Of a stretch of DNA of 60,821 nt, positions 22,671 to 34,687 are shown one piece after another. The position numbers were made by a program, and so were the translations under genes. Location of the stretch: assembly GCA_020056635.1 (NCBI GenBank), contig JAGVHI010000018.1, positions 1-60,821 of the forward strand. The letters are read 5' to 3'. Origin of the DNA: an archaeon. Its GTDB lineage: Archaea > Micrarchaeota > Micrarchaeia > Anstonellales > Anstonellaceae. The notes beneath the pieces were generated by a model, which had not been told where the DNA came from, searched no databases, and was given only the letters and a program-made list of their open reading frames with translations. The stretch's first letter is position 1. Every line of letters starts with the position of its first letter.

Positions 22671-22820
22671 ACTGGGTCACCTTCATGGCGGAATAATATC
22701 CAACTACTTTTTACCACCATACTTATACATGATACTATTCATAAAGCTTTCGGTATCTTCGCCTATTGGCATCGGTAAATTGTCCCAGTATATTTAAAAA
22801 GATTGGTTCAAAGAGCTCAG

Positions 22821-23747
22821 ATGGTATTTCATGTGAATGATAAACAGGTGGATGCGAAAAGTTTTCCGTCAACGCTTTTGCGAGCGAGCGCAGAGCGGGA
22901 GCGACCGGAAAACGCCGAAGCGTTTCACGGGCGTATTCCTGCGAAGCAGGAATCACGAGCAAAAGGGTTGCGTGTGGAGGTTGAATTGGATGTGCGCAGG
23001 AGCGCCATGGAAAACGCTTCCGCCTGCTTTGAGCTTGCAAAAAAAGCCGCCGCGAAGAGAAACGGGGCAAGAGAGGCCATTGAAAAAACGCAAAAGGAGA
23101 TTGCGCAGGCAAAAGAAGGGGCGCTAGTAGAGGGAGCGAAGGCAAAGGGCATCAAAATGAAGCGCAAGCGCGAGTGGTTTGAGGCTTTCCGGTGGTTCTA
23201 TACCTCGGGCGGCAGGCTGGTTCTTGCAGGAAGGGATGCAAAGCAGAACGATTTGCTTTATGCAAGGCACCTTGAGGATGGCGATTTGTTCTTCCATGCG
23301 GACATACAGGGCGCGCCTGCGGTTGTGCTCAAAGACGGCGCAAAGGCGGGCGATGGGGAGAAGCTGCAGGCGGCAAAATTCGCAGCCTCGTTTTCCTCTG
23401 CCTGGAAAATTGGCGCAGCAGAAGTTGATTCGTATTGTGTGAAAAAATCGCAGCTTGGCAAGCATGCGCAAGGGGGCTTTGTAGGCAAGGGGGGGTTTGC
23501 GATAGAGGGCGCAAGGGAATGGTTCAGGAAAATGAAAATTGAAACATATATTGGATTGCAAAGGGGGCTTGTGGCTTGCGCGCCAGAGCAAGGGCTGCTG
23601 GAAAAGGCGATAAGGGTATTGCCAGGCGGGGACGAGAAGGGCAGGGCGGCAAAATTCCTCGCAAAGAAGCTCTCGTGTGATGAGAGCGATGTCCTGTCAG
23701 CCCTTCCGAGCGGGAAAATAAAGATAATGCTTCTTGGGGAAAAATGA
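22821..23747 (+). CDS. Standalone NFACT-R (DUF814) protein with N-terminal coiled coil; carries in-frame hairpin insertion
   Basis: KREWFEAFRWFYTSGGRLVLAGRDAKQNDLLYARHLEDGDLFFHADIQGAPAVVLKDG; no NFACT-N domain encoded upstream. Confidence 0.85.
   Translation: MVFHVNDKQVDAKSFPSTLLRASAERERPENAEAFHGRIPAKQESRAKGLRVEVELDVRRSAMENASACFELAKKAAAKRNGAREAIEKTQKEIAQAKEGALVEGAKAKGIKMKRKREWFEAFRWFYTSGGRLVLAGRDAKQNDLLYARHLEDGDLFFHADIQGAPAVVLKDGAKAGDGEKLQAAKFAASFSSAWKIGAAEVDSYCVKKSQLGKHAQGGFVGKGGFAIEGAREWFRKMKIETYIGLQRGLVACAPEQGLLEKAIRVLPGGDEKGRAAKFLAKKLSCDESDVLSALPSGKIKIMLLGEK
22861..22972 (+). repeat. In-frame hairpin element in NFACT-R gene
   Basis: ATTCCTGC-GAA-GCAGGAAT (22935-22953); GTTTTCCG/CGGAAAAC and AACGCTT/AAGCGTT inverted repeats. 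Confidence 0.75.
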
Positions 23748-23762
23748 GCCTGGGCTGTTTTT

Positions 23763-24311
23763 ATGGAACCAATATTCCAGGGAATACTGCTATTGCGCGA
23801 CGGGCGCGACCTGTGCTCGAACGCCTATGTGGTGAGGGCGAGGGACGGGAGCGAGAAAATATTGCTCGTTGATTCGGGGGATGGGAAATTGGAGGGCGTT
23901 GCAGGGCTGGAGCCTGAGCTCGTGCTCCTCACGCACGGGCATTTCGACCATACAGGTGGCGTAAAAAAAAGGTGGAGGGCGCTCCTGCACGAGGGGGATT
24001 TTTTAGGGGACAGGTTCATACGCGCGCCTGCTCATGCGGAAAAATACCCCCTTGAGATGCGGGTGAGGTGGAGGGATTGGAATTTTGAAATAATCCACAC
24101 GCCCGGGCACACCCCAGGGAGCGTTAGCATATTTGAGAGGAAGAGCGGCGTGCTGTTCTCCGGTGACACGCTCTTCTCAGAAGGGATTTTGGGCAGGACG
24201 GACCTTGGGTTCGGGTCGCAGGAGCAGATTGAGCAAAGCAGGGATGATTTGCTGGCGCTTGACTATTCCGTGCTCTGCCCTGGGCACGATGGGATAGAGA
24301 GGAGGAGATAG
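23763..24311 (+). CDS. Metallo-beta-lactamase fold hydrolase
   Basis: LLTHGHFDHTGG, HTPGHTPGSVSIF, LFSGDTLF, LCPGHDG. Confidence 0.9.
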   Translation: MEPIFQGILLLRDGRDLCSNAYVVRARDGSEKILLVDSGDGKLEGVAGLEPELVLLTHGHFDHTGGVKKRWRALLHEGDFLGDRFIRAPAHAEKYPLEMRVRWRDWNFEIIHTPGHTPGSVSIFERKSGVLFSGDTLFSEGILGRTDLGFGSQEQIEQSRDDLLALDYSVLCPGHDGIERRR

Positions 24312-24342
24312 GAAAACAGGCTTTGGAAGAGGGGGATAAAAA

Positions 24343-24987
24343 ATGAAAATACCAAGAGAGTCACATGAGAAATTGCAAAGCTCGTACAAGGAGCAAAAGC
24401 AAAAAATAATTGAGAGGCTTGCCCATTTCGAATCAGTCGGGAAGCTGCCCCGCGAAAAACTCTTTGAGGAGTTTACTTTCTGCATCTTCACCCCGCAGTC
24501 GAAAGCGCTTGCATGCGATGCGGCTGTGAAAAGGCTGTGCGAAAAGGAGCTCCTCAATTCCGGGAAAGAAGAGGAGATTGCCCCGCATCTTTGCGAGCTT
24601 GGGGTGCGGTTCCATAGGAACAAGGCACGGTACCTTGTGAAGGCGCGATTGGAGTTCGACGAGCACATGCAGGCTGTTGAGGGCGCGGAGGACGATTTCG
24701 TGGCGCGCAACTACCTTGCGGACAACGTGCTTGGGTTCGGGCACAAGGAAGCCGGGCATTTTTTGAGGAACATAGGGCGCGCAAGAAGGATTGCGATACT
24801 GGACAGGCACATACTGAAAAACCTGAAATTACACGGGGCGATAAGGGAGATCCCAAAAAGCCTGAGCAGGAAAAAATATTTCGAGATTGAGAGGAAGATG
24901 CAGGAGTTTTCCCAGGCGCTAGGGATTGACATGCAGCATGTGGACTTGCTTTTCTGGTCCGCGGAAACCGGCGGGATTTTCAAGTAG
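24343..24987 (+). CDS. ogg: N-glycosylase/DNA lyase (archaeal Ogg2-like, HhH-GPD)
   Basis: FCIFTPQSKA, RNYLADNVLGFGHKEAGHFLRNIG, IAILDRHILKNL. Confidence 0.85.
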   Translation: MKIPRESHEKLQSSYKEQKQKIIERLAHFESVGKLPREKLFEEFTFCIFTPQSKALACDAAVKRLCEKELLNSGKEEEIAPHLCELGVRFHRNKARYLVKARLEFDEHMQAVEGAEDDFVARNYLADNVLGFGHKEAGHFLRNIGRARRIAILDRHILKNLKLHGAIREIPKSLSRKKYFEIERKMQEFSQALGIDMQHVDLLFWSAETGGIFK

Positions 24988-25033
24988 GCGATTCTTTTTA
25001 TACCCGCGATTGCCAATTGGCGTGAGTTGAAAA

Positions 25034-25378
25034 ATGGCAGAGGAAGAGAAAAAATCCGCGTGGGTGGACAAGGGCATATGCATCGGCTGCTGCCTGTGCG
25101 CCAGCCTTGCCCCAGGAGTCTACCGCATGAGGCAGGCGGACGGAAAAAGCGAGGTATACAACCCAGACGGGGCGTCCGTTGCCGAGGTGCAGAACACAAT
25201 TAGTTCCTGCCCTGTGGCCGCGATATCGTGGCAGGACCGGAAAACCGACGGCAGCTTTGCTGCCGGACGTATTTCGCGAAGCGAAATCACGGAAGGCTTT
25301 ACAGGCGTATCACGAAGCGATCACGAGAGGAAAAAGGTTGAAGAAGACATAGCGCAGCAGAAGGAGGAGGGCAGATGA
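25034..25378 (+). CDS. Ferredoxin with hairpin-encoded C-terminal extension
   Basis: WVDKGICIGCCLCASLAPGVY ... ISSCPVAAISWQD, followed by a tail encoded by hairpin elements. Confidence 0.8.
   Translation: MAEEEKKSAWVDKGICIGCCLCASLAPGVYRMRQADGKSEVYNPDGASVAEVQNTISSCPVAAISWQDRKTDGSFAAGRISRSEITEGFTGVSRSDHERKKVEEDIAQQKEEGR
25249..25321 (+). repeat. In-frame hairpin element array in ferredoxin tail
   Basis: CGGCAGC-TTT-GCTGCCG; ATTTCGC-GAA-GCGAAAT; ATCAC-GAA-GCGAT (one mismatch). Confidence 0.75.
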
Positions 25379-26076
25379 GCGTGCGGGCTAAGGCAGCGTT
25401 TGCAGCAGTGCTGGTTGTTCTCCTTTTGGGATGCGTCATCCTGCCCCCTCCTAAGCCCGAGGTCAAGCAGAATGGTGGGGTGCAGGGCAATGTTTCCGTA
25501 GAGGAGATCGCAGCCCAGGAGCGTGCGCTTGCCGCGTTCAAGGAGGTTGCAGGAAAGAGGGCGCAACTTGCTTACAAGGCGGTATATTTTTCCAGCAGCG
25601 GCAACCAGAGTTCCGAGCAGACATGGTATGTGAAGCAGCCAACGCAGAAGGTGGAGGACAGGCTAAGCCCGAACAGCAGGATTATGGTCCTTGAGGATGG
25701 CGCAGCGTCGTATAGGTGCGATGCAGACGAGCTCGATGAGGTATGCTTCCGCATGCCAGCAGGCTCGATTGAGATGCTTCGGCCAGAAACCCTGCGCCAC
25801 GAGCTTGCTGCAGTGAGGTCGCCTGACCTTTTCAAGGTGCTTTTGGCTGGTTCCGCCCCAAGCTCTGTAGGAGAGCTGGCGGCGCAATGCTTCACTCTTA
25901 TTTCCACAGGCTCCAAGATGATTGCGTGCTACACAGCAGAAGGGGTCCCCTCGTACATAAAGCTCGAGGGCGCCGGGGCGGTGAGCGAAACGATGCTTCG
26001 CGCCACAAGCCCGGCAAGCGACTCGGACTTTGCGCCGCCTGCACAAATACAGCAGGAGCTGCCCGGTGCAGGATAG
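25375..26076 (+). CDS. Lipoprotein, family shared with 58046 and 58923 ORFs
   Basis: Lipobox LLLGC; CYTAEGVPSYIKLEG...SDFAPPA block resembling the other two. Confidence 0.7.
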   Translation: MSVRAKAAFAAVLVVLLLGCVILPPPKPEVKQNGGVQGNVSVEEIAAQERALAAFKEVAGKRAQLAYKAVYFSSSGNQSSEQTWYVKQPTQKVEDRLSPNSRIMVLEDGAASYRCDADELDEVCFRMPAGSIEMLRPETLRHELAAVRSPDLFKVLLAGSAPSSVGELAAQCFTLISTGSKMIACYTAEGVPSYIKLEGAGAVSETMLRATSPASDSDFAPPAQIQQELPGAG

Positions 26077-26091
26077 CTGCAAAATTAGGCT

Positions 26092-26853
26092 TCATTTTTT
26101 GCGTGCATTGTGCACAGCATCTGCAATCGCAGCCATGTTCGCCTTCTGCTCAAGCGCGGTGCCTATCTGGACAATGTCGCCCCCTGTTGCGATTATCGAT
26201 TTTGCCTGCTCTGGCGTCCGGATGCCGCCCGCGACTATGTAAGGGACATCAATTGCGGATGCAACTGCCTTGACCATCTCAAGGGGCACGTGCCCCTCTT
26301 TTGGGTTGCTGCCCGTGTCAGTGAGCACAAAGCGGTCTCCCGAGTACTGCGCGGCAAGCGCAAGCGCGGCTGCAATTTGCGGCTTTTCGCGCGGGACAAG
26401 ATTCACATCCCCGACCCAGCCGACCGTTCCACCGGGCGACACTACAATGTAGCCCACCGGGAGCGGCTCGACTTTCATCTGCGCCACAGTGCTTGCGGCA
26501 AGCATCTGCGCCTGCGAAATCCAATACGGGTTCCGCGAGTTTAGGAGAGTCATGAAATAGATCGCATCCGCATATTTTGTGACTGTTGATATGTTTCCCG
26601 GGAAAAGCACCACCGGGACGCTTGCATGGGACTTGATTTCCTTGGCAACGGTGTCGAGAAGCTCGCCCTGCACCCCCATGCTCCCGCCTATCAGAACTAC
26701 ATCCGCCCCGGCATCCGCGGAGTATTTGCCGGATTTTATCGCAAGCTCTGGGGACTTGTAATCCACCGGGTCGACTAGCGAGAAGAGAAGCCCGCTCTTC
26801 TTCTCCAGAGACTCAAGAATGTATTTTTCCGTCTTTCCGATTTGCATGTACAT
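26092..26853 (-). CDS. Geranylgeranylglyceryl phosphate synthase
   Basis: LVDPVDYKS, VVLFPGNISTVTKYADAIYFMTLLNSRNPYW, YIVVSPGGTVGWVGD, YIVAGGIRTPEQAK. Confidence 0.92.
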   Translation of the reverse strand: MYMQIGKTEKYILESLEKKSGLLFSLVDPVDYKSPELAIKSGKYSADAGADVVLIGGSMGVQGELLDTVAKEIKSHASVPVVLFPGNISTVTKYADAIYFMTLLNSRNPYWISQAQMLAASTVAQMKVEPLPVGYIVVSPGGTVGWVGDVNLVPREKPQIAAALALAAQYSGDRFVLTDTGSNPKEGHVPLEMVKAVASAIDVPYIVAGGIRTPEQAKSIIATGGDIVQIGTALEQKANMAAIADAVHNARKK

Positions 26854-26859
26854 CCCCCG

Positions 26860-27966
26860 CTATTTCACAATTCCCTCGCTTTTGAGGAACTCCCCTGCCA
26901 TTTGGTTTATCCCGTCACCCAATTTAACCCTTGCCGTCCAGCCCAATTTTTTTTGCGCACGGGCGGGCGAGATTCGCCTGTCGGAAGAGAGTATTTCCAC
27001 GTACTCGGGCTGCATTTTAGGCCGCTTGCCAAAAAGCCTAGCGCCATGCGCCATGGCGCTTGCGGCAACCCACGCAAGCCTTGCATCCGTATGCCTTGTG
27101 GGGGGGGCTGCGCCCACCGCTTCTGCCGCAAGCTTGAGGATTTGAGATTGCGATAGGGTTTCATTCTGCACAATATTGTAAATTTCCATCCCGGGCGTGC
27201 AGCTTTTCGCTCCAGCCGCAAGCATGATTGCATCCGCAACATCGTCCGCATGCACGAATGGGATTATGTTGCCGCCTGCGCCAAGTATGCGCATTTTGCC
27301 TTTTTTTAGCATCCGGAAAACCGCCATGTACCCGTCGTTGAACCCAGGGCCGTAGACCACTCCTATACGAAGCGCGGTTATGCGCATTCTGCTTGAGAAG
27401 TTGGATGCCGACTGCTCGGAAGCAAGCTTGCTTGCCCCGTAATCCGTGGTGGGAACGGTTGGGGAATTTTCGTCTATTTTCTCCCCTGCGATGTTCTTGC
27501 CATAAACAGAAATCGAGCTTGCGAGTATGAAGTGCTTCACTCCGGCATCTGAGGCTGCGTTTGCGATGTTTTCCGTCCCTGTGGAGTTTATTGCAAATAG
27601 TTTTTCCCGGCCGCCCATGAAATCAAGCGAGGCTGCAAGGTGAATTACTGTATCCACCCCCTTGCAAGCGCCAGAAAGCGATTTTGCATCAGTGACATCG
27701 CCAACGAACGGCTCAACGCCCTTTTGGAGCAGGTGCTCGTTTCCTTGGACGCGCCAACCACTTTCGCGAGCGGCTAAAAAACCATCTTGCACCTTCGGTG
27801 CAAGCTCGTAAAGCCGCTTCGCAGCTTTCCAACCGCTCACTCGACCCTGCGAAAAACCCGTCATCGCGCCCTTCCGCACTAGCGCCCTTGTTTTGAATCC
27901 CTTTTGCAGCAGCCTGCGGCAAACAGCCTGGCCTAGCCTGCCTGTTGCCCCGGTGACAAGGATCAT
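26860..27966 (-). CDS. NAD-dependent epimerase/extended SDR with in-frame hairpin insertion
   Basis: MILVTGATGRLGQAVCRRLL, DTVIHLAASLDFMGG, YGASKLASEQ; insertion between VRKG and NEHLLQKG. Confidence 0.88.
   Translation of the reverse strand: MILVTGATGRLGQAVCRRLLQKGFKTRALVRKGAMTGFSQGRVSGWKAAKRLYELAPKVQDGFLAARESGWRVQGNEHLLQKGVEPFVGDVTDAKSLSGACKGVDTVIHLAASLDFMGGREKLFAINSTGTENIANAASDAGVKHFILASSISVYGKNIAGEKIDENSPTVPTTDYGASKLASEQSASNFSSRMRITALRIGVVYGPGFNDGYMAVFRMLKKGKMRILGAGGNIIPFVHADDVADAIMLAAGAKSCTPGMEIYNIVQNETLSQSQILKLAAEAVGAAPPTRHTDARLAWVAASAMAHGARLFGKRPKMQPEYVEILSSDRRISPARAQKKLGWTARVKLGDGINQMAGEFLKSEGIVK
27756..27850 (-). repeat. In-frame hairpin element array in SDR gene
   Basis: Coding strand CTTGCACC-GAA-GGTGCAAG (27786-27804) and AAAGCTGC-GAA-GCGGCTTT (27810-27828). 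Confidence 0.75.
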
Positions 27967-28016
27967 GGATTGGTTTCTCGTTTGGTATTTAAATCCCAAG
28001 CGGGAAAGGTGCCAGT

Positions 28017-29606
28017 ATGGAATCCAAAATGGTTTTCGTTTGCGACACGTCGGTCATAGTGGATGGCAGGATACTTGACTTGGTGCGGGAAGGGAAAGTG
28101 TCTGGCAGGGTGGTGGTACCGCGCGCCTCTGTCGCGGAGCTTGAGCACCAGGCGAATTCGAAAAAGGAGACAGGGTTTGCGGGATTGGACGTGCTCCAGA
28201 AATTGCGCGAGCTGCAAAAGGATTTTGACATCGAGCTGTCGTTTGACGGGGAGAGGCCGACCGGGTTTGAGATTGGGCACGCGAAATCCGGGGAGATTGA
28301 TGCGAAAATCCGCAATCTTGCAGGCGAGATTGGGGCGACATTGGTCACAGGGGACAAGGTGCAGCACGAGGTTGCGCTTGTCGAGGGCATTTCGGTAATC
28401 TACTTGCGCTCGCACGAGGAAACCAAGGGGCTTTCATTTGAGCAGTATTTCGCGCCTGACACGATGTCGGTCCACATAAAAGAAGGCCAGCCGGTCGTTT
28501 CAAAGTCCGGAAAGCCCGGCTCGGTTGTGGTGAAGGAGGTTGGCGCTGCGCTCTCAACCAATGAGGTCCGGGACATTGCGAAAGAGATTGTTGAGGCTAC
28601 AGAGAGGAACAGGGACTACTATTTTGAAATCGAGCGGGAGGGCGCGACTGTGATACAGATGGGCAAATACAGGATTGTGATTACGAAACCGCCGTTCTCG
28701 GACGGGTTTGAAATCACGCTGGTCAGGCCGATTGCAAAATTCAAGTTGGCTGATTATGAAATGTCAGACAGGCTGCGCGGAAGGCTCACTGGAGCTGCCG
28801 AGGGGATAATAATCTGCGGCCCTCCGGGAAGCGGGAAAAGCACGTTTGCAGCAGCGCTTGCAAACCACTACTACTCACTTGGGAAAGTGGTGAAAACGAT
28901 GGAGAGCCCAAGGGACCTGCAGGTGGATGACGGGATTACACAGTACGGGCCGCTGGAGGGGAGCTTTGAGCTCACCAATGACATCATGCTGCTCGTGCGA
29001 CCGGATTACTCGGTCTATGATGAGATGAGGAAGACTGTTGATTTTGCGGTGTATGCGGACATGAGGATGGCAGGGATTGGATTGGTGGGAGTGCTGCATG
29101 CGAACAAGGCGATTGATGCGGTGCAGCGGTTCATCAATAGAGTTGAGCTCGGGATGATTCCGAATATAATTGATACCATTGTGCTCATCAAGGGGGGCCG
29201 GGTCGCAAAAGTGTATTCAATGGGATTGCTCGTGCGCGTTCCTACTGGCATGATTGAGGAGGATTTGGCAAGGCCGGTAATTGAGGTTCGGGATTTTGAC
29301 ACTGATAAGCTGGAATATGAGATTTACAAATTCGGAGAGGAGACTGTAGTGCTGCCCATTACGCAGGAGATGGTCGCAAAGCAGCAAAAGCTAAGCGAGC
29401 CGATTGATGAGGAGCGGGTAAGCGCTGCGCTTGAGAAGCTGCTTGCGAAAATTGTGCGCAGGGATTTCCAGATAGAGTTTGAGGGAAGAAAGGCGGTGCT
29501 TTTGCTTGATGAGAGGGACATGGCATCAGTGATTGGAAAGGGCGGGAAAAACATCTCGCAGCTTGAGAAGAAGGCCGGTGTGAAAATAGACGTGAGGCAG
29601 CTTTAG
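28017..29606 (+). CDS. PIN domain / PilT-like ATPase with C-terminal KH domain
   Basis: [19 protein letters not shown]-loop [36 protein letters not shown]. Confidence 0.92.
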
Positions 29607-29643
29607 CATTCTTTCTTAACTTCGCTTAGCCATAGAACAGCAG

Positions 29644-30000
29644 ATGCGCCAACTCCGCGTGAAATTGATGCGATGGGGCGAGGATCTAGGCAATGTGCCA
29701 ATTATTCTTGTGCGCGAGAGGCGCGCTGGAATGAGCCAAATGGGGCTCGCTTTTTTCCGCGCGTTTCGGGACTCTAAAGACCTGTGGAGCAGGGCATGCG
29801 TCTTCTGTGGGGCAATGGAGTTCGTGAGTGGGGGCGGCGCCAATGCATCAGACCAGAAAATGGTTGCAACCGAGGCTGCGCTGCTTGAGATACGCGTGAG
29901 GGCGGATGAGAAGATTCCTGTTGAGGAAAAGGCGCTTATTTTCAGGGAATCCGGACTTGCAAAGCTCAACCCGCGCCTGTCCAATGCAGTGCATTTGTAG
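29644..30000 (+). CDS. Hypothetical protein, 118 aa
   Basis: Open frame; no family recognised. Confidence 0.5.
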   Translation: MRQLRVKLMRWGEDLGNVPIILVRERRAGMSQMGLAFFRAFRDSKDLWSRACVFCGAMEFVSGGGANASDQKMVATEAALLEIRVRADEKIPVEEKALIFRESGLAKLNPRLSNAVHL

Positions 30001-30052
30001 CTTGCGCCCCTTCTGGCATTGATTTATAGCTTCTGTTTTCCAAATCGGAAGC

Positions 30053-31081
30053 ATGGTTTCCACATTCGAGGCTACCCCGAATATTGCGCTAATCAAGTAC
30101 TGGGGCAAGCGGGATTCGAAGCTCGTGCTGCCGCAGAACAGCAGCATATCCTTTACGCTTGGCAATTCGGTTAAGACAGTTACAAGCGTGCTTTTTTCGG
30201 ACAGGTTGAAAGAAGATGTTGCGTGGCTGAACCGGAAAAAAACATCTGGGGAGGAGCTTGCGAGGATGCTCCTGATAGCCGATTTGGTAAGGCAGAAGGC
30301 CAGCATTTCCTCCAAGGTTGCGATTGCGTCCGAAAACAATTTTCCGACTGCAGCAGGCATCGCATCCTCAGCTTCGGGCTTTGCAGCCCTTGCGTGCGCC
30401 GCATCCGACGCGGCAGGGCTGGGATTGAACCCAACCGAGCTGTCGATACTTGCAAGAATGGCATCTGGCTCTGCTTGCCGGAGCGTACTAGGGGGCTTTG
30501 TGGAGTGGAAGAAGGGCGAGGAGAAGGATGGGGGCGATTCGCATGCTGTGCAGATAGCGCCCGCATCCCACTGGCCTGAGCTGCATGATTTGATTGCGGT
30601 TGCTGAGAGCGGAAGAAAAAAAATCGGGTCGAGCGCCGGGATGGACCGGACCGTGAAAACAAGCGGCCTGTATGCAAAAAGGATTTTGGACCTGCCTTCC
30701 AGGATTGCAAAAATGCGGCAGGCGATAATGCTTCGGGATTCGCAAACCGTATTCGCGCTCTCCATGGAGGACTCGATGAACATGCATGCTACCATGCTTG
30801 ACACCAAGCCCCCAATACTATACTTGAATGAACGCTCGATGGGGATAATTGAAGCTATAGAGGAGCTTAATGCAAGCGAGGGGAAGCTTGTGTGCGGCTA
30901 CACGTTTGACGCAGGCCCGAACGCACACCTAATTTGCGAGGGGAAGGATGTTGCGAAGGTGAAGAAGAGCGTTGCCAAACTCCATGGGATTGAAAAGTTC
31001 TACGATTGCATCGTTGGGGCCGGGCCAATTAAGCTTGCTGCAAAGGAGAGCCTGCTTTCTGAGGCTGGAAAGCCTGTATGA
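30053..31081 (+). CDS. mvaD: Diphosphomevalonate decarboxylase-like GHMP protein
   Basis: PNIALIKYWGKRDSKLVLPQNSSISFTL, NFPTAAGIASSASGFAAL, SGSACRSVLGGFVEW, YTFDAGPNAHLI. Confidence 0.9.
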   Translation: MVSTFEATPNIALIKYWGKRDSKLVLPQNSSISFTLGNSVKTVTSVLFSDRLKEDVAWLNRKKTSGEELARMLLIADLVRQKASISSKVAIASENNFPTAAGIASSASGFAALACAASDAAGLGLNPTELSILARMASGSACRSVLGGFVEWKKGEEKDGGDSHAVQIAPASHWPELHDLIAVAESGRKKIGSSAGMDRTVKTSGLYAKRILDLPSRIAKMRQAIMLRDSQTVFALSMEDSMNMHATMLDTKPPILYLNERSMGIIEAIEELNASEGKLVCGYTFDAGPNAHLICEGKDVAKVKKSVAKLHGIEKFYDCIVGAGPIKLAAKESLLSEAGKPV

Positions 31082-31091
31082 GGTGCGCGAT

Positions 31092-32084
31092 ATGAGGGGG
31101 ATAGCAGCTATAGTTGCAATCGCAGTTATTGCATCCGCATTCTTGGCAGGATGCGCTGGAAATGGGGAAGGCGCAATTCAGGTTGGAGATAACCGAACTA
31201 TTGCTGCGAATGGAACTGAAAAAAGCATCTCATTGTACCAGGCGATCGCAGAGGTCCGTGGCAACAGGAGTTATGAAGCATGCGGGAGCGTGCCAAGGGA
31301 GGATGCAGGGGTTTGCTACACTTACGCAGCACTTACGATAGACGGGGCGCTCTGCGACCAGGCAAGGGATCAGGACGCACAGACTTACTGCAAAAAGGCG
31401 ATTTCGATTTTCGGGGGGAAGCTGGATTTGTGCAGCAGGCTATCTGAGCTTGGCCCAAGGAACGGCTGCAATTCAAAGGTGATACTTTCCACGAATGCAT
31501 TTGGCAGGTCTGCGGACCATGCGCTTGCGGCAGGCAGGGTGCAGGGCGCGTTTGAAGCAGCATACTCAGACCTTGATTACAAGAGCATGAAATCATCGGT
31601 TTTTGAATGGGGCGATTCGTGCGTTGCGCAGACGATTGGGACTGGAGTGCTGCTTGGGTGCGACGGGGAAAAATGCGACAGGAACGCAATCACATATGCA
31701 TTGGTGGCATGCGGAGAAAATATGAGCGTGCGGGATGTTGCGCAAAGCGGGCGCGGCTCTGTATTCGAAAGGATGGAATTTGCAAACCTGGTTTCCCAGC
31801 CAAAGCGGGCAGAAAAGGGGTTTCCGTTGAAACTGAAAAATGAAACTTGGTATAGTGATGGGAATGCGACTGTCGCATATTATTCAGTTAGGTCATCGGA
31901 TGATTTGGCGTATTCATACTGGGAATTCCTGGTGCCATCAGGGCAGTATTACGCTTATGGGAGCATGCTGCACGAGCAAGTCACCTTGAACGGGCCTGCC
32001 CCGTCGGACAAGTTCATGGCCGGCTTCGAATCGCTTTACGGAAACATGACAGGGGGGGCGCTCTCAAATGCAACTGAAGAGTAA
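31092..32084 (+). CDS. Cys-containing lipoprotein
   Basis: MRGIAAIVAIAVIASAFLAGCAGNG lipobox. Confidence 0.7.
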   Translation: MRGIAAIVAIAVIASAFLAGCAGNGEGAIQVGDNRTIAANGTEKSISLYQAIAEVRGNRSYEACGSVPREDAGVCYTYAALTIDGALCDQARDQDAQTYCKKAISIFGGKLDLCSRLSELGPRNGCNSKVILSTNAFGRSADHALAAGRVQGAFEAAYSDLDYKSMKSSVFEWGDSCVAQTIGTGVLLGCDGEKCDRNAITYALVACGENMSVRDVAQSGRGSVFERMEFANLVSQPKRAEKGFPLKLKNETWYSDGNATVAYYSVRSSDDLAYSYWEFLVPSGQYYAYGSMLHEQVTLNGPAPSDKFMAGFESLYGNMTGGALSNATEE

Positions 32085-32688
32085 AGGGAAGACCATTCCG
32101 GTTTCCAAGTTCGATGCCGCCCTGCAGAAGGCAAAGGAGGCGATTGCAAAGGGCCGGGCAGTAATCTACCCGACAGATACGCTCTACGGAATCGGCTGCG
32201 ACGCAACAAGCAAGAAGGCCGTTGGGGGGATTTATCGCATAAAATCCCGCGAGCCAAAAAAGCCCCTCTCCATTCTTGTTTCTGACTTGCCGATGGCGAA
32301 AAAATATTGTGAAATATCGCCAAGGCAGGAACAGGTTCTCACGGCTCTCCTGCCAGGCCCGTATACCTTCCTGCTCAAGCTGAAAATCCCCCTGCCAGTA
32401 ACCGACAGCAAACTTGTGGGGGTGCGGGTGCCGGAACACATGTTCATGCGCACTGTTTCCAGGCAGCTGGGAATCCCGATTGTGACAACAAGCGCGAATA
32501 GGAGCGGGGGGAAGGACGCTGCTGAGATTGGCGAGATTGAGGAGGGGATTTTGAATTCAAAAGAAGTTTCCTTGATTGTTGATGGCGGAAGGTGCAAGTA
32601 CGCGCAGGGCTCAACTGTAATTGACCTTGTGGACATGAGGGTTGCGCGCAAAGGGGCAGTGAGAGAAGGCGATAAGATTGAATTCTGA
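32068..32688 (+). CDS. tsaC: L-threonylcarbamoyladenylate synthase (Sua5/TsaC)
   Basis: AVIYPTDTLYGIGCDATSKKAV, KPLSILVSD, PGPYTFLLK, VTTSANRSGG; overlaps previous ORF by 17 nt. Confidence 0.92.
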   Translation: MQLKSKGKTIPVSKFDAALQKAKEAIAKGRAVIYPTDTLYGIGCDATSKKAVGGIYRIKSREPKKPLSILVSDLPMAKKYCEISPRQEQVLTALLPGPYTFLLKLKIPLPVTDSKLVGVRVPEHMFMRTVSRQLGIPIVTTSANRSGGKDAAEIGEIEEGILNSKEVSLIVDGGRCKYAQGSTVIDLVDMRVARKGAVREGDKIEF

Positions 32689-32701
32689 TGCGGTGCTTTG
32701 A

Positions 32702-34687
32702 GTGGATTTGAATTTGATTGAGTATGATAGGTTGAAACTCTCCATTTTGCCTACTGTTTATCCTCCAGCGGAGGACTCGTTTTTGCTTGCAAAGTGGGCT
32801 GCAAGGCTTGTGCGCGGAGCGGTGCTTGAGGTCGGGTGCGGATGCGCTCTTGCATCGCTTGCGTGCGCACGGGAAAATGAAGCTGGGAAAGTGCTCGGGG
32901 TTGATGTCAATCCCTATGCAGTCAAATGCTCAAGGGAGAATGCCATTGCAAACAAAATCAAGAATGCGAAATTTCTCGAATCTGATTTGTTTTCTGCGGT
33001 GAATGGGAAAAAATTCGACTGGCTGCTTTTCAACCCGCCGTATCTTCCTACTGGAAAAAAAGAGAGGATGGCAGATGAAAACGAGAATGCAGCATACGAT
33101 GGAAGGAAGTCTGGCAGAAAAATAGTTGATGCGTTCCTTTCCCAATTTGAAAAATACCTTGCAAAAAATGGCTCGCTATTGCTCGTCTCAAGCTCGATTT
33201 CGGGCACAGAGAAAACAGTTGAGGGATTGGAACGGAAAGGATTCCGAACAAGAGTGCTTGAAACAGCCCCATTTTTCTTCGAGAAGCTTTCGCTGATTTG
33301 CGCAACAAAAAGAAAGCTTGATTATTCCGCTGCGCTCTGGGAAATAAGGTCGCTGGAATTGTTTGGGATGAAGCTTGGGCTATCGCGCATGCAGAAAATC
33401 CTTTCCGCGCTCGGGGAGCCGCAGAAACAGTTCCGCGTGATTGCAGTTGCAGGAACGAATGGGAAGGGCTCGGTTGCCACGATGGTTGCAAGCGTTTTGC
33501 AGGAAGCTGGATTTTGCGTTGGGCTCTACACTTCGCCGCACGTTGATGATTTTAGGGAAAGGTTCTTGGTGCAGGGAAAGATGACCGGAAAGCGGAGCTT
33601 TTCGGGCTCCTGCAGCTCGGCTGCAGGGCATATTCCGCGAAGCGGAATCATGATGCAACGAAGTTGCATGATTTCGGAGGATGAGTTTGTGCGTGAGTAT
33701 GCAAAAGTGGATGTGATTGCGCAAAAAATGGCCGACAGACCGACCTTTTTTGAGGTTACCACAGCGCTTGCACTCAATTGGTTTGCAAGCAAGAATGTTG
33801 AGTTTGCAGTGCTTGAAGTCGGTTTGGGCGGCAGGCTTGATGCGACCAATGCAGCGGATGCGGAAGTGGTTGTGGTCACTGGCATAGGCATTGAGCACGC
33901 AAAGGAGCTTGGTGGCACGCTTGAGAAAATTGCCAATGAAAAAGCCGGGATAATAAAACAGGGGAGCTCGGTCGTGGTTGGGAAGATGGAGAAGGAGGCG
34001 CTGGATGCGATAGTTGCAGCTGCAAAGGAGAAGAATGCAAAAAAAATTCTTATTTATGGGGAGGATTTCGATGCAGCCGAAATTGCATGCAGGAGCAATT
34101 ACTCGGAATTCGATTATAGGATTGGGAATGTGAAGTTCCCTTTTGAACTGTCGCTTTTCGGGAGATTCCAGGGGCAGAATGCCGCGTGCGCCATTGCCGC
34201 AGTGTCGCTTTTGCCTGAGAAAGATAAGATTGGAATTGGGAAGCTACTTTCCGGGCTGAAAAAAGCGCGCATTGGCGCCAGGCTTGAAACTGTATCCCTC
34301 AGCCCCTTGGTTGTGATGGATGCTGCCCACAACCCCCAGGCAATGGAGAAGCTTGCGCAATCGCTTCCATTGTTCAAGTACAAGCGGCTGGTTTTGGTGT
34401 TCGGCGCCATGGCTGATAAGGACATTGAGGGGGTGCTGAGTGCGATAGGCCCAAAGGCAGGCGAAATAATTGTGAACCAGCCGAAAGTGGCGCGCGCTGC
34501 AAACGCCGAGTGGGTTGCAAAAATTGCGGGCAAGTATTGCAAAAAAGTCTACGTAATTCCTGATGTGAAAAAATCAGTTGCGCATGCAAAAAAAATGGCG
34601 CGCAAAGGGGATATGGTTCTTATAGCAGGCTCCATATACATGATAGCTGAGGCAAGGGGCAAGGACAGGCTCGGAATATCGATGTGA
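32702..34687 (+). CDS. Fusion: HemK/Mtq2-like methyltransferase + FolC (folylpolyglutamate synthase family), with in-frame hairpin insertion
   Basis: N-term VLEVGCGCALASLACA, LLFNPPYLPTGK; C-term VIAVAGTNGKGSVATMVASVLQEAG, LYTSPHVDDFRERF, LEVGLGGRLDATNA, VMDAAHNPQAM. ORF continuous. Confidence 0.9.
   Translation: MDLNLIEYDRLKLSILPTVYPPAEDSFLLAKWAARLVRGAVLEVGCGCALASLACARENEAGKVLGVDVNPYAVKCSRENAIANKIKNAKFLESDLFSAVNGKKFDWLLFNPPYLPTGKKERMADENENAAYDGRKSGRKIVDAFLSQFEKYLAKNGSLLLVSSSISGTEKTVEGLERKGFRTRVLETAPFFFEKLSLICATKRKLDYSAALWEIRSLELFGMKLGLSRMQKILSALGEPQKQFRVIAVAGTNGKGSVATMVASVLQEAGFCVGLYTSPHVDDFRERFLVQGKMTGKRSFSGSCSSAAGHIPRSGIMMQRSCMISEDEFVREYAKVDVIAQKMADRPTFFEVTTALALNWFASKNVEFAVLEVGLGGRLDATNAADAEVVVVTGIGIEHAKELGGTLEKIANEKAGIIKQGSSVVVGKMEKEALDAIVAAAKEKNAKKILIYGEDFDAAEIACRSNYSEFDYRIGNVKFPFELSLFGRFQGQNAACAIAAVSLLPEKDKIGIGKLLSGLKKARIGARLETVSLSPLVVMDAAHNPQAMEKLAQSLPLFKYKRLVLVFGAMADKDIEGVLSAIGPKAGEIIVNQPKVARAANAEWVAKIAGKYCKKVYVIPDVKKSVAHAKKMARKGDMVLIAGSIYMIAEARGKDRLGISM
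33585..33669 (+). repeat. In-frame array of four hairpins in FolC domain
   Basis: CCGGAAAGC-GGA-GCTTTTCGG; CCTGCAG-CTCGG-CTGCAGG; ATTCCGC-GAA-GCGGAAT; ATGCAAC-GAA-GTTGCAT. Confidence 0.8.

Follow-up and report, generated by a model that had tools for sequence, protein, structure and literature searches.

Small double-hairpin elements with copies in protein genes and box C/D sRNA genes of an archaeon of the Anstonellaceae

Four unrelated protein genes in a 60,821-nucleotide stretch of archaeal DNA (Anstonellaceae; assembly GCA_020056635.1, contig JAGVHI010000018.1; the whole stretch is called the window here) contain short segments built from hairpins, which raises the question of what these segments are and how they came to lie in coding sequence. 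The genes encode the C-terminal part of RqcH/NFACT, a ferredoxin, an SDR/epimerase, and FolC. Our analysis makes it very probable that the segments are copies of a non-autonomous mobile family in a small archaeal genome, whose unit is referred to below as the double-hairpin element (DHE).

A mechanical hairpin scan recovered every hairpin that the initial annotation had named in these genes, at positions 22935-22953, 25249-25265, 25271-25287, 27786-27804, 33609-33627, 33632-33648, and 33653-33669. Triloop hairpins of at least 7 bp occur 14 times in the window (expectation from Markov sequences, 5.6); the most frequent triloop is GAA. The four open reading frames (ORFs) stay open throughout the hairpin segments, as had been claimed. 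Compared with dinucleotide shuffles, the fold of the segments gives z values of -3.9 to -5.3 for NFACT, SDR, and FolC, and of -1.6 for ferredoxin. In a direct-repeat search, the ferredoxin segment paired with that of FolC (82% over 39 nt). No Rfam family matched the DHE, either in the window or at the other loci.

The family was searched for with BLAST, using a copy found beside tRNA-His, and then with a covariance model, R1, built from seven DHE copies; a second model, R2, was built from the class A second hairpin described below. The genome searched (G000) is 1.1 Mb long, in an assembly that is 78.8% complete. It contains ~23 copies at ~20 places on many contigs (best E values, 8e-17 with R1 and 1e-11 with R2). 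About half of these places are non-coding; this count is approximate, as short-stemmed class A copies may escape the search. In the genome-wide searches, the window hairpins reached E values of 6e-11 to 1.5e-10 with R2, and the SDR copy scored 44.8 bits (E 5e-9) with R1. Several window copies were part of the R2 training set, and the independent support therefore comes from the further places found. The initial annotation had proposed a mobile or expanding element; the matches lie far from chance with both models, and the family is dispersed genome-wide and larger than was noted. Two R2 matches, at C4:7810 and C20:63678, were judged to be chance.

The DHE unit consists of two hairpins and is usually 43-54 nt long. 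The rim of the first hairpin is YCG-GA...(T/C)A or TT-CGR (also written YCGGA...WACGR or TTCGR). The second hairpin is either of class A, GCGTA...T-C-ACGA with variants GCATA...T-C-ATGA, where one C is unpaired (bulged), or of class B, GCTTGCA...TGCATGA. Rims and linkers of 20-45 nt are common to unlinked loci on many contigs and to different genera. Stem interiors and loops differ between copies, and the interiors remain paired. In a fixed-column test, 10 of 16 pairs were altered on both sides (alignment A5, and likewise A7), a level that none of 500 shuffles reached, and sliding the partner columns destroyed the pairing; the compensatory variation reported earlier is thus confirmed. For class A alone (alignment A8), 3 of 10 pairs were altered on both sides. 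Both-sided changes account for 22 cells, compared with 4 cells for one-sided changes of the G-U type. Arms were paired at 97-99% within their own copy and at 79% and 48% after arms had been swapped between copies, but because the arms were picked by eye, the fixed-column tests carry more weight than this one. The rarity of G-U intermediates suggests that what is kept or reset is the palindrome as DNA and not just a fold in RNA. Upkeep of the DNA palindrome fits the scarcity of G-U at least as well as RNA-level selection, which is possible. In one subfamily, the DHE and a T5-T7 strand lie together inside a covarying GC-rich outer stem, creating a three-way junction. Its members are the copies of SDR, pyrophosphatase, C8, Nth, and an sRNA of G004, a genome from a sister genus, and they span two genera.

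The features of the window that concern the family are as follows.

22803-23747: ORF of the RqcH/NFACT C-terminal gene, likely start ATG 22821.
22862..22969, + strand: a copy from a second family of repeats (the "core", TTTTCCGTCAACGCTTTTGC...GCAAAAGGGTT), located toward the 5' end of that gene and enclosing a DHE; the sequence is common to the C25, C14, C9, C8, and C5 copies and is missing from NFACT of relatives.
22905..22958, + strand: NFACT DHE with a class A second hairpin, 54 nt, in frame (RPENAEAFHGRIPAKQESR); R1 and R2 match (R2 E 1.5e-10), and fold.
25034-25378: ferredoxin ORF; the ferredoxin domain reaches residue 66 of 114 (Pfam).
25237..25326, + strand: composite ferredoxin DHE, 90 nt, much of the C-terminal extension; sequence, Pfam boundary, and R2 matches at 25263-25292 and 25301-25326.
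25249..25293, + strand: inner ferredoxin DHE, 45 nt, within the GAA loop of the first hairpin of the outer DHE; its removal regenerates CCGGAAAACC-GAA-GGCTTTACAGG.
27740..27865, - strand: insertion of ~42 codons in the SDR/epimerase gene (26860-27966), limits approximate; no aligned relative has it, and the alignment of G007 and G017 is contiguous across it.
27785..27833, - strand: SDR DHE, lying with a T6 strand inside an outer GC-rich stem; R1 match, fold z -4.7.
33585..33671, + strand: outer and inner FolC DHEs, 87 nt (29 codons); gap in homology to 1o5z, fold z -5.3.
33609..33653, + strand: inner FolC DHE, 45 nt, separating the first and second hairpins of the outer DHE; its removal regenerates CCGGAAAGCGGAGCTTTTCGGGCT-TGCAACGAAGTTGCATGA.

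The segments had been described as runs of consecutive short hairpins. The hairpins are there, but those of FolC and ferredoxin form a DHE nested in a DHE, and the NFACT segment is a copy of the second-family repeat that holds a DHE. The same nesting of DHE within DHE is found in PurF. One stem match of the outer ferredoxin element has been lost.

The core of the second repeat family reads TTTCCGTsAACGCTTTTGCGAGCGTGCCCATCTGGAGCGAGCAAAAGGGTT. It is uninterrupted at C14, C9, and C8 (L028-L030), and DHEs interrupt it at three distinct landing points: CGA^GCG and CCCA^TCTGG in the copy beside tRNA-His, CCCA^TCTGG at C5:1661, and GCGA^GCAAAA in NFACT. The uninterrupted and interrupted copies thus provide natural empty sites. 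Insertion is usually after an A, and no target-site duplication beyond an ambiguous 1-3 nt was consistent across the sites read. Two copies of the core are situated inside tRNA introns. The tRNA genes in question, L029 (G000:C9:6160) and L030 (G000:C8:31737), have introns of ~110-160 nt that carry the core; the isotypes given by ARAGORN are doubtful for both, and the presence of an intron alone was used. Since further core copies lie next to tRNA-His, in front of genes, and within NFACT, this second family may be mobile in its own right or represent an uncharacterized RNA.

Coding copies of the DHE, all in frame and free of stop codons, are present in the genes of NFACT-C/RqcH, ferredoxin, SDR, FolC, PyrC, PurF, class II ribonucleotide reductase, FolD, Nth, and Nop10. 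The copies in PyrC (L006) and Nth (L023) are antisense to the gene. The Nth copy forms a C-terminal extension, as do those of FolD (L057) and Nop10 (L049), and the ribonucleotide reductase copy (L059) is close to the N terminus. The PurF copy (L218), found with R2 as was the copy at C11:15153, lies in the N-terminal 42 residues, ahead of the residue numbered 1 in the crystal chains. A similar translation of the copies, as first described, applies only to the three class A hairpins that are read in one frame; further copies use different frames or, as in PyrC and Nth, are antisense.

Alignment with orthologues shows that relatives of FolC, SDR, and NFACT are without the peptides. Residues 6-72 and 107-430 of FolC align by phmmer to residues 31-97 and 103-423 of 1o5z, which has 5 residues between the two blocks; the excess of 29 residues in FolC is accounted for by the two nested DHEs totaling 87 nt. 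The SDR relatives align to residues 1-34/37 and then from residue 75/84 onward. For NFACT, the match begins only at residue 50-60 in nearly all relatives, and the insert is flanked by "VNDKQV" and "ELDVRRSA". PyrC has 13 residues more than CAD. As judged from these alignments, the coding DHEs are real insertions and not ancestral peptides.

Two observations concern the host genes themselves. The C-terminal half of RqcH/NFACT is a separate gene throughout the lineage (a split NFACT; window 22803-23747, relatives L159-L187). In ORF 32702-34687, FolC is joined to a HemK/PrmC-like methyltransferase with an NPPY motif, which is an unusual fusion.

The initial annotation further proposed that the elements are selected for frame compatibility, which the data do not support. 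The DHE copies have 78 open frames compared with 73.5 of 114 in dinucleotide shuffles, and 51 of 300 shuffles reach 78; moreover, half or so of the places are non-coding, and non-coding copies, too, usually have a length divisible by three. Since openness is at the level of the shuffles, coding copies need only purifying selection, and this together with the standard 45-nt length is enough to explain why the frame is kept.

Among the non-coding places, the one beside tRNA-His has two DHEs; others are two box C/D sRNAs, the sequence flanking a membrane pyrophosphatase gene on its 3' side, and C5:4666, C5:1661, C8:52326, C7:25082, and C11:15153. Both sRNAs (L022 and L024) are ordered C (ATGATGA or TGATGA), D' (CTGA), DHE, C' (TGATGA), and D (CTGA), so that the DHE directly follows the D' box; it has one orientation in L024 and the opposite one in L022. 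A third C/D-like sRNA with a DHE is found in G004 (L078), where Rfam sR3 matches weakly across it with 23.6 bits, below the cut-off of 41.

A survey of 84 genomes of the order with R1 gave strong matches only in this genome (12) and in G004 (1), as well as two weak ones. G028, which belongs to another family of the order, has 61 weaker matches built on ATCGGAAAGTCC...GGACTTTTCGAGCT...GCATTCA, situated at contig ends, where palindromes nested recursively within one another form large arrays (L070, L079, L082-L087, and L113-L127). The similarity of the rim sequences suggests, but does not prove, that these elements are related to DHEs. Pattern scans beyond the lineage returned five bacterial matches, consistent with chance, and none in viral contigs. 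In the sister genus, a DHE (L066, G004:C26:1105-1151) lies a short distance upstream of the gene for ribosomal protein L1. In another genus, a class-A-like hairpin (L190, G003:C12:3474; GAGGCATATTTGGCAAAGCCAAATCAGGCCTC) is located beside a tRNA gene and adjoins a masked stretch.

If the family is mobile, a DHE would jump or be copied as fold-back DNA, either in the course of replication or through a trans-acting enzyme, and its paired interiors would probably be kept or reset at the DNA level. Landings would persist where added sequence is harmless, such as the loops of element hairpins, the D'-C' spacer of C/D sRNAs, and the 5' and 3' flanks of genes. In proteins, the harmless sites would be loops, termini, and propeptides, and there the DHE would be translated and tolerated, not spliced out. 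The landings in loops may reflect tolerance rather than targeting. A more specific model can be put forward only tentatively: the mobile unit would be DNA folded into two hairpins, with rims that are fixed and self-complementary interiors that can be reset freely; it would prefer hairpin loops including its own (hence nested growth, extreme in G028), be copied by DNA fold-back without a classical transposase, and contribute novel peptides to essential enzymes as well as new arms to guide RNAs of the C/D type. Several points weigh against mobility. The Y1 transposase (PF01797) is absent from G000 (78.8% complete) and G004 (90%), and a mobilizing enzyme was not found. Movement itself was not observed. 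Some copies may have spread within larger repeats and not on their own, and translation of the inserts is a prediction.

It is possible, although doubtful, that the DHEs are non-autonomous elements moved by a single-strand HUH transposase (Y1, IS200/IS605 or RAYT-like), in the manner of repetitive extragenic palindromes (REPs) and of the palindrome-associated transposable elements (PATEs) of haloarchaea. PATEs and the miniature inverted-repeat transposable elements (MITEs) derived from IS200/IS605 in haloarchaea are non-autonomous palindromes without target-site duplication. DHEs are likewise archaeal, non-autonomous, and palindromic, but they are much shorter, and PATEs are linked to a transposase with matching ends, of which none was found in G000. 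Palindromes, fixed rims, and the lack of a clear target-site duplication suit HUH chemistry, and G028, with its related copies, has 14 Y1 matches. However, neither Y1 nor RAYT was found in G000 or G004, and the Y1 loci read in G028 end in different hairpins and are not bordered by DHE rims, so that the 14 matches may belong to unrelated IS200-type elements. REPs are short stem-loops whose stems carry alternative residues that complement each other; they often occur in pairs, sometimes lie within genes, and are associated with GTAG/CGTC tags and RAYTs (PMC3733652). Alternative complementary stems are shared by DHEs, but their rims are YCGG and GCTTGC or GCGTA, and the GTAG/CGTC foot tag is absent.

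Spread at the RNA level, in which a hairpin RNA would enter the loops of other RNAs and return through reverse transcription and recombination, is unlikely. The landings in structured RNAs are in loops (the C/D spacer, core repeat loops, and DHE loops) and target-site duplications are not consistent; an RNA intermediate was suggested for the Allomyces mitochondrial elements for the same lack of duplications (PMC2800124). Yet the bias toward loops is explained by counterselection of stem landings, roughly half of the places are antisense, lie between genes, or are not RNAs of a known kind, and G-U pairs are rare. We regard it as very unlikely that the segments are archaeal introns, cut at a bulge-helix-bulge (BHB) by the tRNA splicing endonuclease to leave proteins without the peptide. 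Structured insertions in archaeal genes can be introns, and the core repeat does lie in tRNA introns, but every coding copy is in frame and stop-free, including the 87-nt and ~126-nt inserts, DHEs also occur in C/D sRNAs, untranslated flanks, and each other, in both orientations, and no recurrent BHB was seen at the junctions by eye (no systematic scan was made). Repeated local formation of immobile hairpins by replication template switching, with rim likeness due to coincidence or conversion, would fit the perfect pairing and the few G-U intermediates but is strongly disfavored by the rims and linkers that unlinked loci and different genera have in common.

As a mobile family, DHEs can be compared with two further systems. 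Rickettsia palindromic elements (RPEs) are ~150 bp long and reportedly code for a conserved peptide (Ogata et al. 2000, 2002; reviewed in PMC10969869). RPEs resemble DHEs as small palindromes in frame in unrelated housekeeping genes, read as extra peptides, with mobility deduced and no known transposase. The likeness drawn in the initial annotation stands: DHE insertions are in frame, in unrelated protein genes, and missing from orthologues. Unlike RPEs, DHEs are ~45 nt long, are read in several frames and from either strand, have covarying interiors, are nested, occur in C/D sRNAs, and have an archaeal host. Repetitive hairpin-forming elements in the mitochondria of fungi and sponges consist of hairpins in tandem with complementary stem substitutions; they have intergenic, rRNA, and in-frame protein-gene copies, their mechanism is unknown, and those of Allomyces lack target-site duplications (PMC2800124). 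DHEs share with the double-hairpin elements among them the two adjacent hairpins, the compensatory stem changes, and locations in both RNA and protein genes. They differ in fixed YCGG rims, a bulged C, and a host chromosome that is archaeal (box C/D sRNAs, Nop10, archaeal RqcH, tRNA introns), and the sequences are unrelated as far as known. Given these shared and differing features, including those of REPs, we class DHEs among the small hairpin mobile elements, as an archaeal variant that is new and belongs to none of the families compared. No description of archaeal in-frame palindromic elements was found in the open-access literature.

In-frame hairpin elements were thought to be peculiar to Rickettsia and organelle genomes, and a comparable family is now found in an archaeal chromosome. 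Its presence there, also in guide RNA genes, suggests that compact genomes repeatedly acquire such selfish DNA. The covarying, nearly G-U-free stems make the question of hairpin copying testable by comparison of strains.

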